DNA from: Thuidium tamariscinum
Taxonomy: Eukaryota > Streptophyta > Bryopsida > Hypnales > Thuidiaceae
DNA length: 64,000 bases
NCBI GenBank assembly: GCA_947034885.2
Contig: OX344752.2
Span: 10,788,001-10,852,000, forward strand
Direction of reading: 5' to 3'
Part shown: positions 914 through 22,700 of the stretch, in pieces
Numbering within the stretch: the stretch's first letter is position 1
Layout of the letters: each line of letters starts with the position of its first letter
Program-made: the position numbers and the translations under genes
Notes under the pieces: model-generated
The model's input: the letters and a program-made list of their open reading frames with translations, nothing else
What the model was told of the DNA's origin: nothing
Databases searched by the model: none

Positions 914-3587
914 CGAGAACATGGAGAAGCTCTGTCATCTCAGTTGTCGACAATCATATTCGCTTTCTTCGTGATGTGATCGCAGGCATATTTCTTTGTG
1001 GGCTAATTATTTGGTCAGCTTTCCATAGCGAGCTTTTAGTCATTGCCTTGGTTGTTCTATTACAAACTGGGCATGTCAGACTGTCGAATGCTTTCAGAAG
1101 CAGATCTCTCTGTAGAAGGATTGTAGGACTCATCTCAAGCTGATCCTTGTCAGACAGTTGCATAGTCTGGATGTAGATGAAGAGAAAGCTTTGCCTGTCA
1201 AAGGCAATTCGCATGCCAGCACCACGTTTTGCAAGCAAGGAAACTTTGGTAACTCCTCGAAATTTCAAGCGTTTGGCTGATTCTTGACCTATCCCTCTTG
1301 ATTCTCGTCTGTGATTGCACATTTGCACTCGTTTTGTGAAACTGTCAAGCAGATGTTTCTATATTTAAATCTTTCAATCAAAGTAGTTATTAGAGTTTTT
1401 TCCAGGGATTCATCTCACATGCATAAGACTGCGCATTATGATCTAAATCGGTATTTAGGCTACGATTCCAAATTACAGCGATTCACATGAAAATCATCAC
1501 AGGATCAATTTCCACCCTTACAGTGGTGGTAAATTCATCACCGAATGAGACCAATTGCATCCCGAAAGAATTCAAAATTTTAATTTAATTAGAGTTGGAG
1601 TTATGCAATGATAGAAGTAATAATTGAAAGATGACATCATGTGTTAAATTCTACTTCAATTGCAATTTCAATCACCATTTATTTAGTGTCCATTTAAGAC
1701 CTAAAAATTAATTTTGGGGAGTTAAACTTCTTGAAATACTTTTTTCAATAAATTTTCTTGAAAAATAGATGGAATTGGCATCTAGTACCTAAGTCATTTC
1801 ATATCTTTTGAAGCTTCATAGAATTAATTACAATTAGTACACACCTCTTGAAATGTAGACTATTTGTACATTGCTAATGTAATGAAAAAGCAAAATGCAC
1901 AAATATTGTAGATTTTAGGATGTAGATAATTTTAGAGCTTAATAAACCTCCTACTTTAACCCCTAAATGTACAACCATCCACACAAAAGATGATCAATGT
2001 TGTAGAAAGTGAACTTCATCCAAATGAATTAATATTCATTGTGAAAGCTTCAAGAAAAGTTATGTAGGATATCAATGGAAGGAAGATAAAATACTCTGCA
2101 TCATAATGTGATTATATGAATTCTAAAAAATTCCTTTAAATTAAAGTAATCTTATTATCTTTTGATGAAGCACTTGGAAAGGAATTTCTCTCTCTAATGT
2201 TTCTTGGAGCTAGTGAGCTTTTGTTTTCTTGATGGAAGCATGACATGCACCTAAGAATCCAAACAGATCAAACGAATTATCCAATTGTAACCATCCATCC
2301 TTCATTCATCTACAAAGTAGCAAACTTCATCCAAATACAAATTTTGACACTTCATAGGCATGATTTTGCTAATTTCATCCACATTTTTGTTTTGTTTTCA
2401 TTCTAATGCAACAAGAACTAGCTAAAAAATCAAGTAAGATTTTAGCAACTAATGTGGGTAGATCCCAAATTGCACCTTGTCTAAAACTTCTATTATCAGT
2501 CTTTATACATTTCCAAAATCAATAAAGACCTATGTTCAAGAAACAATTTTAGAACATTTACTAAGAAAATTTTGATTGCTCGTAACTTTTTTATATGGTA
2601 TTTGAATGTTGCATTCTTTGGTGTAATTGAACCTCCTTTCATTCACCAACAAGAAAATATGAAACTTTGAGTAGTGTACTGTAATTGTGTATTAGTGGGG
2701 AAAAAAAAGGTGACGCTTTGAGGTATGAAACTTTGAACAGTCTATTGTACCTATGTATTAGTGAGAAAAAAAAGTGATACTTTGAGATGTTCTTAGTTCC
2801 CTACCCTATTCACCAACAAAAATTTCAAAGCTTAGAGCCACTCCCCATAGAGGATACTAAATCCTCCCTTCACAGTGGGCTGAGTAGGTGGATTTATCCT
2901 AGAAATCAGTACATGAATTTTTTTACTTTTAGCATATAATTTTTTTTACAAATTCTGAATTCATATTGCAATCAGAGACTCTTGATTAGATAGGAGAGGT
3001 CTAGAGCATAGCATACAGTGGAAACACCCAAAACCGTCCAAATAAAGAATTCAGCATGGTTGGAGGCATCTATTTCTAAAATTGATATTTTCTAGTATTA
3101 GCGAGAGAAAATAATGAATATTAAAAAAAAATTAAAATTTTCAGAATTAGTATGTAATTTCTACAAATTTTCAAAGAGGTGGCTCCCTAGACCACTAAAA
3201 CCGTCCTATAGGTGTACCCTAAACTGAACTCTGCTGGAAATCAGTTGTCAGTGAATGAAAATTATACATGTGTCTTACATCCGCGTCATCAAATTAGAGT
3301 TAAACACTTGTCAGACACTGTAATGAACGCTTATGGACAGATTTAATGACACTCTAGGAACCAAGAATAGGTACAGGGACGGAAATGGGTGTTTCTCCCT
3401 TAGATACAGCAAAATGGAGGGGAAATACCCTACTGGACCCACTTCGAATGGAGGATTTAGTGTCCTGCCTCCCCCATACAAAAAAGTGAGAGAAAGAAAG
3501 CAAGGGCATGCCTGGGTTAACTTACTTATCCAGGCGTTCACCAATGAAACGCTGGCCCTCCCCCTTCCCATCTTCCCTTCCTGACGA
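914..3587. other. AT-rich intergenic region
   Basis: No gene is supported. The stretch is strongly AT-rich with homopolymer A/T runs and scattered degenerate repeats, including one clear 66-bp direct repeat listed separately. From about 3.3 kb the GC content rises towards the petN promoter. Confidence 0.6.
2658..2789 (+). repeat. Tandem pair of ~66-bp direct repeats
   Basis: Two adjacent units start with TATGAAACTTTGA at 2658 and 2724. Both continue through GTATTAGTG, an A-run and a GTGAYRCTTTGAG end. They differ at several scattered positions, so this is an old local duplication. No coding capacity is seen. Confidence 0.75.
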
Positions 3588-3817: not shown

Positions 3818-5517
3818 ATGGCCGCTCTCGCTGTCGCCTCCGTGCCTATCGTCGGCGCCTGCGCCTCCTTGGCCGGGGAGAAGCTCAACCTCGCCCCAGC
3901 GCGCACCACCACGTTCGCCGTCCAGGTAGGATGCTCACATTGCTAGGCTTGCATTGTGTTTCAATTGGCCTGGATCGTCGCTTCTCCGCTTTTCGAATTT
4001 ACCGCAACATGAATGAGCGTGTGCAGTTTCGGTGAGTGGTATTGCTCTGTGGAGGGAGCTCTTTGTCCTGGTTTGAATTGTGGTGGTTTTTTGAGAGATT
4101 TCGTTTTGTGGAATTTGGATTTCGTGTTTTTTTAAATTCTTGTGCAAGCGATTTACATCACGTGTTCGGAAGCAATGCGTGTTCATGAAATTTGTGTTTA
4201 TGGAAACCGCATTACTGTACATTTAATGGAGAGAATGTACGTGAGGTGTACATTTTAGGAGGCGGTGTAGCATGTGGAGCTCCCGTCTCGTTGGACGCTC
4301 GTTTGAATTGCCGCGGTTTTTGATACCCGTCGCAATTCTAATTTGTTTTGTGAAATTTGGAATTCGTGTTTGTTCAATTCTTGTGGGAGTGATCTACAGC
4401 GCTTGTTAGGGAAGCAATGCGTGTACGGGAAATTTGTGTGCATAGAAATCGCATTAATGCGCAGTTTATGGAGAGAATGTACCTGAGATGTATATGTCAG
4501 GAGAGAGTGTCCCCTGTGGTGCGCTCTTCGCATTTGGATTGTGGCGAAATTTAATTCGTTTTTTTTCAATTCCTGTGGGAGTGATTTGCATTGCATGTTG
4601 GGAACGTTTGTATGTGTGGAAACCGCACAATGTACATTCTATGGAGAGAATGTACCTGAGGTGGTGTCTCCTGTGGAGTGTTCGTCGCTCATTCGAGTGC
4701 GGCGGTTTTTGACAGATTTGTTCTCTAGAATTTGAAGTCTTGTTTTTTTGATTCATTGTGGACGTAATTTTCACCGTATGTTGTGAACCTATGCATGCTC
4801 GGGAAATTCGTATGTATGGAAACCACATTAATGGACATTCCATTGAGAGAATCTACCCTAGGTTTACATTTTTAGAGAGTGTCCCCTGCTCAGCACTTTC
4901 TGCTAGACTGCTGCTAATGGGACACTTGGTGAGTGTTCTAAGGGGAGAGTGTACTTCAGGTGTACGCTCAGGGGTGATGTACCCCTGTGTGGCACTCGTC
5001 ATTCAAATTGCGGCGGTTTTCATTACATGTGTTTAGGAAGTTCGAATTTCTAGGTCCTCCATTGTTTGTTGAAATTATTGAAACTGCATTCTCGGAGCAA
5101 TTGATTCGCACCATCGTCAAAATGAGTATCGACTTCTGTGCAATGAACTTGGAATCGCATTTCGATGATGTTGATAACGAAACGGCAATGGCGTCCTTGT
5201 TGTGTCCGTATTGCAATGTGGTGGCGTTTTTTCTGTGTTGCGATCAAGTACGAGGAGTGATTTACGTGACTGTTTGAAATGATCGGCAGATGGCGCCCGT
5301 GAGATGCTCGACCCAACGCAAGTCCGAGAGCGAGGTCGTCATCAGGCAGCGCGCCATAATGGCGGCAGCGTCGGCGTCCATGATGGCCATCGCCACGCCT
5401 GCGTTGGCCGCCTCTGATTCGGTGCCTTTGGACCTCACAAGCGTGGCATGGGGAGCCTTGATGGTCGTGTTCTCATTCTCGCTGTCGCTGGTGGTGTGGG
5501 GGAGGAGCGGGTTGTAG
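3818..5517 (+). CDS. petN: PetN, cytochrome b6f complex subunit VIII, nuclear-encoded precursor
   Basis: PetN is the single-helix subunit VIII of the thylakoid cytochrome b6f complex, which passes electrons from plastoquinol to plastocyanin. Exons are 3818-3925 and 5290-5517, joined in phase 0 across a GT-AG intron to give a 111-residue precursor. Residues 83-111 align without gaps with the 29-residue plastid PetN and end in [12 protein letters not shown]. Residues 1-42 resemble a chloroplast transit peptide (Ala/Ser/Thr-rich, basic, few acids). Residues 55-76 (basic RQR, then an Ala/Met-rich hydrophobic stretch ending TPALA) resemble a thylakoid-transfer domain with an AxA-type processing site. 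That would place the mature N terminus in the lumen, as expected for PetN. The first ATG has no upstream in-frame competitor. Most plants keep petN in plastid DNA, so this is a functional-looking transfer to the nucleus. Neighbouring genes are unrelated. The identification is firm; import and processing are inferred. Confidence 0.92.
4085..5040 (+). repeat. Degenerate tandem repeats filling the petN intron
   Basis: At least five diverged copies of a unit of about 100-240 bp fill most of the 1,364-bp intron. They are anchored by GGAGAGAATGTACSTGAGGTG-like motifs at about 4228, 4470, 4643, 4844 and 4944. Associated shared motifs are GGAAACCGCATTA, GAGTGTCCCCTGTGG and TTTGAATTGCGGCGGTTTT. Spacing is irregular, so units have gained and lost pieces. 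ORFs here are shadows of the repeats. Confidence 0.8.
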
Positions 5518-6693
5518 AATTCAGCTTCGGTGATGGTGGGAGGTTCAGCAAATGCATCCCACCAAACACAAGATCCGCCATTTCTCGGTCCTCGCAGCAG
5601 AAGATTAGTCGATAACTTTCCGGCTTCCATTGTTTCTGGGCTGAATGTGGAATTCGGTCCTGCTCATTCCTCCCCAAGGGATGTGCATGGGTTGTAGATC
5701 TCCTATTTCGATGTATCTTTAATACACATTTCTTCTTTCCATTCTTGTCTTGTGGTTTAGTAAGTGGTGCAAATTGCGCTTTCTCAGGAGTGGTGATTAT
5801 GAGTTTGTATTGTGTTGACCTTGATTATTGAGGAAGAATGGCAGCACAAGGGAATATAATCACTCGCTTACTGTGAGATCTGCCATGAGAGCCACGAAGT
5901 TGAAGACAACTTGATTACCCGCACATTGTGTCATAGTCATGGATCAACATACACGTTCTTGCGTTAGGTTACAGCCATGTTACAGCTAGGAACAAGAGAA
6001 CGAGTACTGGAACGAAGGAAATAATCTATTGTATCGAAATTTAATCGGATGTGTATGTACCTCATTTTTTGATTCTGAAAATTTTGCCATTCACTTGTAA
6101 GCTTACATTGTCTCTCATCCTGTAGATATGTGTAGTTCCTTGACAAGAGATTAAGTGAGCAAGGCCTCAATAGAAAACGCCAATCACAGGGGAGGAACAT
6201 CGAAATGATGTTGGATACTGAATTGAGGAGTGCTGCTAAAATCCAAATGTAGAAGGCCGATGCTACGAGCATGACAGGATTATCCGAATCCCTGGCCATT
6301 GAGAATGTAGAGAGGTCATCTCAAAGAGTACATGAATCTGAAACTACGCCTGGAAATTCTATGACAACTGAACAGGAGTATTTTGATCCTCTCACAGCAG
6401 TTAAAAACTTCAAAATATAGTCTTCCTGTCAGTAGAGAATTCCGGGGAACTGCCCGCAAGGATTCAATCAGAGATGATTTTATACCTAAATTCTGCTGCC
6501 CTTAGAGCATTGTGAGGAGGAAGAGTTTGTGACTTGCACTTCTGTTTCTTATGATGATGAGTAATGAAGTTCTGTTTTTCAAAGCGACGCAAACTCAAAA
6601 AGTCCTACTAGCTTCGTCGGAATCTCCCGCCACTGCATCGTGATTCGAAGTGCGAAGTGATCATCGTGTCTTGAACCCGTCGTACACAATCGA
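5518..6693. other. petN 3' flank and spacer
   Basis: This holds the 3' UTR of petN (an AATACA-type polyadenylation candidate near 5720) and then spacer. One plus-strand frame from about 6195 to 6420 reads as about 75 hydrophilic codons, including KADATSMTGLSESLAIENVE, interrupted by a single TAG. It may be a decayed exon. A minus-strand ORF in the same place has a hydrophobic stretch. Neither is recognised. Confidence 0.45.
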
Positions 6694-19700: not shown

Positions 19701-22700
19701 GCCTCTAGCCCTTATTTTTGAAAAATGGAGATCTAGATGGCTTGGAGTGTGGTTTGGGAGATAGCAGTTTTTGTTGAGAGACAAAAATTTCAACTATAAT
19801 TCCTTGAAAACTTGACTTTTGTAGTTTTGAGGGGTAAAAGTTCAATTTATAGGCTTAAATCTAACTCTTAGCTCTAGTTTTAGAAAAATGTGAAGAACAA
19901 TGATGATTTCTAAGGAGTTGGTTTTTGAAAACTGAGTGTGAAGGAAACAAATTGAAGACTCTAGGTCCATTTGGAGTATTCATCTAGCTTTAGAGGGTCT
20001 TCTAAATGTTGGTTCTCCAATAAGGCAATAGAAATTGACCCTAATTCTAATTTTTTTACAAAACAACCCCTATAGATTCTTCTCTAAATTCACTACCTCT
20101 ATCTATAAGATTCTAGAGGTGTTTTTAGGTTCATCTATTTTTAACAATTAAAAAATTCATAGTTTTATACACAAGGTCCAAAAAATGCATGAAAAAGGAT
20201 CTAGAATACTTTTTTGACTTATAACAATTGAATTATTTGTAAAGTCCTCCCCACTTTGGGCATGACTTTTTTTGAAGTTGAAAAAGCAATTATAGATGAA
20301 GCGTCAAACTTTTTTGCAAGATACTTATGTCACACAACTTCAAAAGTGGGGACCAAACTTTTGTAGGCACCATTTTTATGGAAAAATAAGTTTCATGCCC
20401 ACTTTCATTTCGACTTTTTTAATTCAACCGGCTTTTTCACAAAACTCTTGGGTTTAAACCTCGGTTTAGTGTACTTTACGAATAACTCAAATATCAAACA
20501 AAATATTAGGCAATTTAACAATAGGAATTGTGATGAATTGTGTTTTCAAATGCATTCAAGAGTAGTCATTTTACTACATTATTTATTAAAAAATAAGGAG
20601 AAAAACAATGAAGTGGGAACTTGTTAGTAGTTTATTAAAGCAAGTGGCTACGGGTCCAAAGGATTGATGACAAATATCAAAGAGTCTTTTTTCCATTTGA
20701 TCAACCTTTTTGTATCTCATGTCATACATTTGAGATGATAAGAGAATTGAAAAACTTACATTTCAAAATCCATGAAATCAAGAAAAGAATTAGTTTTTAT
20801 TAATTGTACCTATAGAAAGAGACAAAGTAATGGTATATGTCAACTGAAAAAATCCAAAGCTACATATTTAAATGAAAATGATGCCTATCAATCCAAGAAA
20901 TGAATTTCTTTACTAGTACAAATTCAAATCCAAAATTGTAAAAAATTGTGTTACATCAATTTCAATGTGTTAGAAGTAATATAATATTTTGTGTATAATA
21001 AAAATCATTGAAAACAATTGCAACAAAGATGTATTGGTCTTAGACTTCCTTCTTATATGAAATGGATACTAAGCAAAACTTTCCAGTTATCTTGAATATA
21101 ACATGATTATAGTGATTACAATGGAAATGGTATTTCTAGCAACATACATTGAAAGCATACAAATAATGAGGAATAATCTAGATCAAGGTGTACATACAAA
21201 TACTTATATAAAGAATGCAAAAGGTTAGTAGAGAATTTAGTTGAACTTTGGACCTTATTTAAATATATGAATTTATTTTTTTCTAATTTATTTTTATCTA
21301 AAAAAATTAGAAAAATTGAAAATAATTTCCTTTCAATTCAAATATTTGTTTGTGGTTTGAATCCTCCATTCAAAAGTTGTAGACAAAATTTAGAGAGGTA
21401 TATGGAAGATTATTTTTATTTGCTTCTACCTAAAATTTGTGTTTAACTTTGAAATAACAAAAATATATATCAAAATACCTTGATTTTGTATTAATATCTC
21501 ATTCATTATATAATTGTATAATACATGAGGAAGTGCAAAATAACACATGACATTGAAGCAAACATTGCCACATGTTGTATACAAAGAACAAAGAGGTGTT
21601 GAGATTGTTCTATTTTTGTTTAGTATCTACCATTTCAACCTTCAAAAGGTATTTTATTGTATGCTATTTTCAAATAATGCACCCAATAGTGATTATTCAA
21701 AATGAAAAGTCCATCATTATCAATGAAGATTTGTAGGTGGTTGTCTTGCATCATCATATAAAATTTAGCCCATGAAGATTCTTATAATAGCATCTAATAT
21801 AAACTTTTATTTAGTATAAAAACATCAATTGAAATATGATTTTAAGAAACATGTGCTAATTTGGGTGCATTTTCATAATATTCATGTTTTTCTAGGTGTA
21901 CTTTAAAATGAATATTTTTAAAAGTTTCAAAGAATATAGCCGAAAAATATTTGAGAATATTTCAAATTTTTTTACCAAACAACTTGCAACTTACCATAAT
22001 ATAGGGAGGTCTTAATTCATAATGTTAAAAAATTTAGAATTTTTTTTGAACTAATACATAATGTACAAATTAATGTACTTGCAATTATGAGTAAGACATA
22101 TACAAGTAAATAATACTACATATGTATAAATTTTTGTTCTAATAAAATAGACTTAAACATAAGGATTAGGGAATTTAAAAAAAATTATATGGTCAATTAC
22201 TGGTCTACATATGTACTTGGGTGGATGAAATATTGCATGTATAGGAGGCAACCTACTCCTGATCACCTCTCATTCTATCAATGTAGATTGTTTTCTTTTC
22301 ATGTAGGAAGAGATAAATGGTGATTAAGTATGACATAATTCTTGATGTAGTTGTGGTGTAGTTGTAGCACATTATGATTGGGTACAATGTTTTCAATATT
22401 GCAATCAACCCTTGGTGGATTTTGCATCTAATCCTTGCTCAAAAATAAAAAGGTCTATATAAATAGGATGTATTGAATAGAATCTTCAACTAAAAATTCA
22501 TAATAATTATATTTTTTAAAATAGAAATGTGAAAAATTATAGGTTCGTTCTAAACTCAAATTCTACACACAAGAAAATTTCGACATTGAAGAAACCTATA
22601 GATACATGTATCTACTTTAAGTGGTCAGAAATGTCTTTGGCCTCCCTTAACTACACTAGACATTAAATCCTTCCATCAAAGGTGGGCTTAGTAGGGTAAA

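Follow-up and report, generated by a model that had tools for sequence, protein, structure and literature searches.

In the moss Thuidium tamariscinum, petN has very probably moved from the plastid to the nucleus, where its reading frame follows a presequence derived from psbTn and takes the place of the mature PsbTn part. A nuclear petN in a moss is already known from Sanionia uncinata; what is new is that psbTn appears to be the source of the presequence, that the two genes share an intron and that Sphagnum has this chimera too. An earlier note on this DNA, made from its letters alone, had proposed the move of petN to the nucleus, and PetN is indeed encoded on contig C4 while the readable bases of the plastid contig C19 hold no petN; the novelty implied by that note is weakened by the report of the Sanionia gene in 2018 (PMC5877570). 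No earlier report of a petN presequence derived from psbTn was found in one open-licence library, where a paper on mistletoe (PMC9614478) contains both gene names.

Structure and genomic setting of the nuclear petN gene

The window, i.e., the whole stretch of 64,000 nucleotides analyzed, corresponds to C4:10788001-10852000, where C4 is a 32.5-Mb contig of an assembly of 363,211,507 bases. Of the 19 contigs of this assembly, eleven are 17.5 to 54.2 Mb long and the other eight 11.8 to 115 kb. The gene lies on the forward strand and consists of exon 1 (3818..3925, 108 nt, residues 1-36), which matches both exon 1 of psbTn in the same genome and Sphagnum petN, a phase 0 intron of 1364 nt between Gln36 and Met37 (3926..5289, GTAGGA...CAG) and exon 2 (5290..5517, 228 nt, residues 37-111), which ends in the stop codon TAG at 5515-5517. 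The joined exons translate into 111 residues with zero internal stops, so that the exons, intron borders and reading frame given in the earlier note were confirmed, as were the presequence ending in TPALA and the invariant PetN C terminus (WGRSGL).

Residues 1-36 represent the first part of the presequence, a putative stroma-targeting transit peptide. A predicted thylakoid-transfer stretch resembling a signal peptide follows at residues 57-76 (5350..5409, + strand), where hydropathy reaches 1.84 in 12-residue windows; it aligns with RRAMxAxAAASVLAIAxPAxA of PsbTn and ends at the AxA-type site PALA. As read from the sequence, cleavage is predicted after Ala76, which would leave a mature PetN of 35 residues (77-111). 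The PetN core occupies residues 83-111 (5428..5514, + strand) and matches the Pfam family PF03742 with an E value of 2.7e-12 and 46.8 bits (cut-off 20.3 bits), filling profile positions 1-29 of 29. The PetN chain 6rqf_P aligns to the same residues (E 2.1e-11), with 23 of 29 identical as counted by hand on the alignment, and further solved chains also match the core, including the Chlamydomonas-type 1q90_N (E 4.7e-8) and three more. The 6rqf_P alignment is gapless, in agreement with the claim that the C-terminal 29 residues are PetN.

A search of all 19 contigs for the PetN family yielded six matches at E values up to 10; only the one in the window was above the cut-off, and C19 had none of the six. 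When the petN protein was searched against its own genome, it matched itself, exon 2 of psbTn (E 6.2e-6) and one further place at chance level (E 0.78). Pfam matches were obtained for four of seven window proteins, namely petN, a UMP synthase-type protein, a piece of a K+ transporter and a sub-threshold piece of DUF255. The window gave no blastn match to C19 at an E value of 1e-3; flanking plastid DNA, which the earlier note had named as the mark of a recent plastid insertion, is thus absent and petN sits on a nuclear chromosome amid nuclear genes such as those for the UMP synthase-type protein and the K+ transporter. The GC content at third codon positions of petN is 0.857, compared to a GC content of about a quarter in the plastid contig, suggesting an old gene adapted to the nucleus.

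Absence of petN from the plastid contig

Two of the smaller contigs appear to be organellar. C19 (115,000 bases) is the plastid contig of the assembly, with plastid genes, and C18 (103,123 bases), to judge by its open reading frames, tRNAs and group II introns, looks like a mitochondrial genome. The usual position of plastid petN is between psbM and trnC. A reading of C19:1-10000, a region free of N, placed psbM at 4497-4601, an ORF of 38 residues at 4770-4886, an AT-rich stretch of about 1.4 kb with no recognizable gene at the expected place of petN (4887-6299, L031) and trnC-GCA at 6300-6372 on the minus strand, followed by a gene that we take to be rpoB. No petN is present in this N-free stretch between psbM and trnC-GCA. 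Elsewhere in the readable 102,500 bases of C19, tblastn with three PetN queries found chance-level matches only (best E values 1.1, 0.57 and 0.18, at unrelated places), whereas all seven tiny plastid proteins used as controls (PetG, PetL, PsbM, PsbT, PsbL, PsbI and PsaJ) were found, with E values of 4e-8 to 5e-21.

Plastid petN is absent both at its usual site and in the 102,500 readable bases of C19, as the earlier note had expected. N fills the other 12,500 of the 115,000 bases, and with about 9 kb less than the plastome of S. uncinata (124,374 bp; PMC5877570) the contig may be incomplete, which leaves room for a relocated plastid petN. In tobacco, a stable cytochrome b6f complex has been reported to require PetN (PMC5643376), and a PetN product is therefore to be expected from somewhere in the cell.

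Relationship of the presequence to psbTn

A profile search based on an alignment reached P0008, the 'photosystem II 5 kDa protein' (PsbTn) of Physcomitrium patens, with an E value of 2.5e-19. This protein has no PetN domain and matches through the presequence alone. P0008 in turn had three matches in the T. tamariscinum genome at an E value of 0.001, which were exon 2 and exon 1 of psbTn on contig C2 and exon 2 of the petN gene in the window. The psbTn gene (L004 on C2) consists of exon 1 at 2527-2628, a phase 0 intron of 569 bp (GT...CAG) and exon 2 at 3198-3440, with the stop codon ending at 3440. The place and phase of the intron are identical in the two genes; it separates VSVQ from MGPVRC in psbTn and FAVQ from MAPVRC in petN, with phase 0 in both.

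Between the presequences of petN and psbTn of the same genome, 43 of 72 aligned residues are identical, and the alignment score of 169 compares to a mean of 34.9 (sd 5.7) and a maximum of 64 among 2000 shuffles. The petN presequence of the window is identical to psbTn of P. patens at 45 of 72 residues and to Sphagnum petN at 45 of 74, and the two psbTn presequences share 59 of 72 residues with each other. These comparisons, together with the intron, indicate homology between the petN presequence and that of PsbTn, which is encoded in the nucleus and resides in the lumen. The part common to both genes starts with exon 1, includes the position of the intron and extends through the first half of exon 2 as far as the lumenal cleavage region, to about residue 82. 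The joint in petN lies within a few residues past the AxA site, where PsbTn reads ...PAFAVTEGTP and Sphagnum petN reads ...PALAATEPFDLTGVAWG, and the mature parts of PetN and PsbTn show no alignment (local score 11). The search for a donor of the presequence, suggested in the earlier note, thus led to psbTn with an equal intron position and phase. The proposal that a ready-made targeting exon had been captured was right in kind, yet too narrow in extent, since half of exon 2 matches psbTn as well.

No relic of the mature PsbTn part was seen downstream of petN. A single locus with psbTn and petN as its two alternative products was considered and rejected; psbTn lies on C2 and petN on C4, and tblastn of mature PsbTn against the window gave chance-level matches only (best E 0.95). 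Beyond the exons, blastn of the two gene regions against each other revealed one stretch of 185 bp and short chance-level pieces. This stretch (73.5% alike, E 9e-25) lies upstream of both genes in opposite orientation (window 3019-3202, L004 1685-1865) and is probably a dispersed repeat. When ORFs in 24 kb around psbTn were compared with those in 73 kb around petN (E 1e-3), four matches were obtained. One joins the two first exons, two cover these exons on the opposite strand and one is 49 amino acids long. The last of these (65% identical, E 3.7e-18) connects an ORF frame near window position 20366 with L049 near position 3224 on the minus strand and is perhaps a mobile element. The flank ORF comparison thus provided no convincing common neighbor gene.

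The chimera in other mosses and the number of captures

A protein search with the window petN found seven proteins, of which four (P0001 to P0004) are considered here and three are plastid-like reading frames. P0001 (111 aa) is 94% identical to the window petN, with 7 differences in 111 residues and none in residues 83-111. Both exons are contiguous in P0001 on a contig of 1118 bp; as this contig is shorter than the 1364-bp intron of the window gene, P0001 is probably the spliced transcript of a relative. P0002 (75 aa) and P0004 (77 aa) start with the first residue of exon 2, a methionine. P0003, from Sphagnum compactum (106 aa), is the same chimera of psbTn and petN. Recurrence of the whole architecture in P0001 and P0003 argues against a chance arrangement, and its presence in Sphagnum suggests that the fusion probably predates the Sphagnum split. 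The first 35 residues of P0035 (71 aa, on a 2443-bp contig) equal those of P0003 up to ...VSVQ and then diverge, by eye, at a valine codon; P0035 resembles Sphagnum exon 1 with translation running on into an intron in that position.

The reach of these searches differed. A region search with presequence residues 1-80, which needs exact shared words, found P0001, P0002 and P0004 and missed Sphagnum petN and psbTn. The alignment search scored the 7993 candidates sharing most words and returned the best 120 of 233 matches; a nuclear PetN of P. patens and those of other mosses were absent among these best 120, which is weak evidence. Among the matches fetched, Thr4 and Val6 of the PetN core occur together in 6 of 117 cores (P0001-P0004, P0010 and P0009).

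A single capture of the psbTn presequence by petN is favored from these comparisons, and independent captures in the Sphagnum lineage and in that of the window appear unlikely. The presequence of Sphagnum petN is nearer to psbTn (52 of 72 residues identical to that of the window genome and 51 of 72 to that of P. patens) than to the window petN, as would be expected from more than one capture, but this greater likeness could also reflect slower change in Sphagnum. The petN chimeras of the window, P0001 and Sphagnum share an additional residue in exon 1, together with a proline, that is absent from both psbTn, they read ALAA at the cleavage site where the two psbTn read A[MF]AV, and they have the same joint. 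Moreover, five of the six cores with Thr4 and Val6 are of the moss type, the sixth being P0009. The shared intron does not bear on the number of captures, since psbTn has it too.

P0009 is a PetN precursor of 122 aa from a JGI metagenome. A gapless alignment with the moss type covers its last 57 residues (68%), among them the thylakoid-transfer stretch. Its presequence scored above 500 of 500 shuffles against each of four moss petN and psbTn presequences, and BLASTP aligned the last 30 residues only. No relatives of P0009 were found in viral_contigs and genome_contigs, as expected for eukaryotic DNA.

Proposed route to the thylakoid membrane

A copy of psbTn, comprising exon 1, the intron and exon 2 to just past the lumenal cleavage site, would have provided promoter-side sequence and a complete bipartite presequence, to which the petN reading frame would have been joined where the mature PsbTn part had been. 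Lumenal proteins are described as having bipartite presequences that are processed by SPP and then TPP (PMC11754785), and a presequence of that type would carry the petN chain to the thylakoid. If expressed in T. tamariscinum, the precursor would be taken into the chloroplast by the first presequence part, and the second part, similar to a signal peptide, could insert together with the PetN membrane span as a hairpin. The thylakoid processing peptidase would then cut after PALA, leaving mature PetN with a lumenal N terminus and a stromal C terminus (WGRSGL), and the nuclear PetN would substitute for the lost plastid product in the cytochrome b6f complex.

PsbTn (PSII-T) uses the Tat route, and it is conceivable, but rather improbable, that PetN reaches the membrane by this lumenal route of its donor rather than by a hairpin insertion like that of PsbW and PsbX. 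Twin arginines are present in the two PsbTn precursors (NRRAM) and are kept in the petN protein P0004 (QQRRAML). However, they are missing in four of five petN, where RQR is found in the window, P0001 and P0002 and KRC in Sphagnum, and PsbW and PsbX, which are bitopic and have cleaved signal peptides, have been reported to insert without Sec, SRP, Tat or Alb3 (PMC8790069). The loss of the twin arginines in most of these petN may mean that a Tat-type signal was relaxed after it had come to precede a passenger with a membrane span of its own.

Direction of the capture and state of the gene

Homology by itself has no direction, and psbTn could in principle have taken its presequence from a nuclear petN. 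This seems very unlikely, as the PsbTn precursor of P. patens aligns with PsbTn from outside the mosses (8c29_U 66-132 and 9i4t_U 32-102) not only over the mature part but also over the second half of the presequence. Plastid DNA is often transferred to the nucleus, but a recent insertion of this kind or a decayed pseudogene without function is hardly credible here, given the lack of a blastn match between window and plastid contig at 1e-3, the open frame with its high GC3, a core identical in P0001 in spite of a varying presequence, the same precursor in Sphagnum and the missing petN at its plastid place. Capture of the psbTn presequence by a transferred petN remains the preferred reading.

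Loss of plastid petN in mosses

The first moss reported to lack plastid petN was Tortula ruralis (PMC2841679). The loss from moss plastomes has been on record since 2010, and both a transfer to the nucleus and a connection with desiccation tolerance have been speculated on (PMC2841679). Tetraphis was also found to lack the gene (PMC4035505), as do most Bryopsida (PMC11901946, PMC11202921). In Sphagnum palustre, plastid petN is present according to unpublished data mentioned in PMC4035505 and by implication absent in PMC6726147, and its absence in Tortula atrovirens has been treated as an assembly fault (PMC12430682). A loss of petN with subsequent regain in the ancestors of Physcomitrella has been suggested (PMC6726147).

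On balance, we consider it probable that the chimera arose once, before the Sphagnum split (and earlier if P0009 is from a non-moss streptophyte), that the nuclear and plastid petN coexisted for a long time and that they were then sorted, with most mosses dropping the plastid copy and Physcomitrium and its kin keeping it; the latter may have dropped the nuclear copy, or that copy may never have been annotated. If this is true, a single chimera followed by long coexistence explains the patchy distribution of plastid petN in mosses without a regain. With a named donor, a common intron and the chimera in Sphagnum, petN loss becomes a single event that can be dated and looked for in every moss genome. 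The gene also points to a route by which a membrane protein of 29 residues whose N terminus faces the lumen can move to the nucleus, i.e., by borrowing the whole presequence of a lumenal protein of another complex.

Comparison with known systems

The closest case is S. uncinata, which also has a plastome without petN and a single nuclear homolog, found by BLAST of a draft genome and confirmed by PCR; this homolog was suggested to serve the chloroplast (PMC5877570). Unlike the present analysis, the accessible text of that report contains no presequence donor, intron comparison or dating, and the signal peptide that it states is for nuc-rpoA (PMC5877570).

The nuclear PetN of green algae (e.g., P0098 of Chlamydomonas incerta and P0082 of Chlorella vulgaris) similarly have the core behind an Ala-rich N-terminal extension, in proteins of about 97-114 aa. 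However, the four algal presequences compared (P0098, P0047, P0062 and P0037) show no detectable kinship to those of moss petN and psbTn; in 16 comparisons between algae and mosses, the observed score was reached by 11 to 312 of 500 shuffles. Judging by these scores, the green algal and moss nuclear petN are probably separate transfers. Four other proteins (P0034, P0099, P0013 and P0018) each contain PsbY (PF06298), then a second Ala-rich stretch and then PetN (PF03742), with both domains above the cut-off in all four. PetN in some alga has thus apparently moved to the nucleus within a PsbY polyprotein, which would be another way into the thylakoid.

The psbTn gene itself (P0008 in P. patens; G000:C2 in T. 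tamariscinum) resembles petN in its bipartite presequence and intron position and differs in its mature product, which is a soluble lumenal subunit of photosystem II with two cysteines and not a membrane span. The precursors of PsbW, PsbX and PsbY appear to work alike, with a bipartite presequence ahead of a small membrane span whose N terminus is lumenal (PMC8790069), but no homology to them was detected by the tests run, the match of P0008 to the Pfam family PsbW being sub-threshold (14.0 bits, cut-off 25.4).

Capture of a transit peptide has also accompanied the transfer of plastid ribosomal protein genes to the nucleus, including rpl22 in legumes and rpl32 in poplar and mangrove. In these transfers, as in moss petN, the moved gene was joined to an existing nuclear targeting sequence, and an intron lies within or next to that sequence. 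By comparison, moss petN would use the complete stroma-plus-lumen presequence of another photosynthetic complex, and would do so for a protein of the thylakoid membrane.
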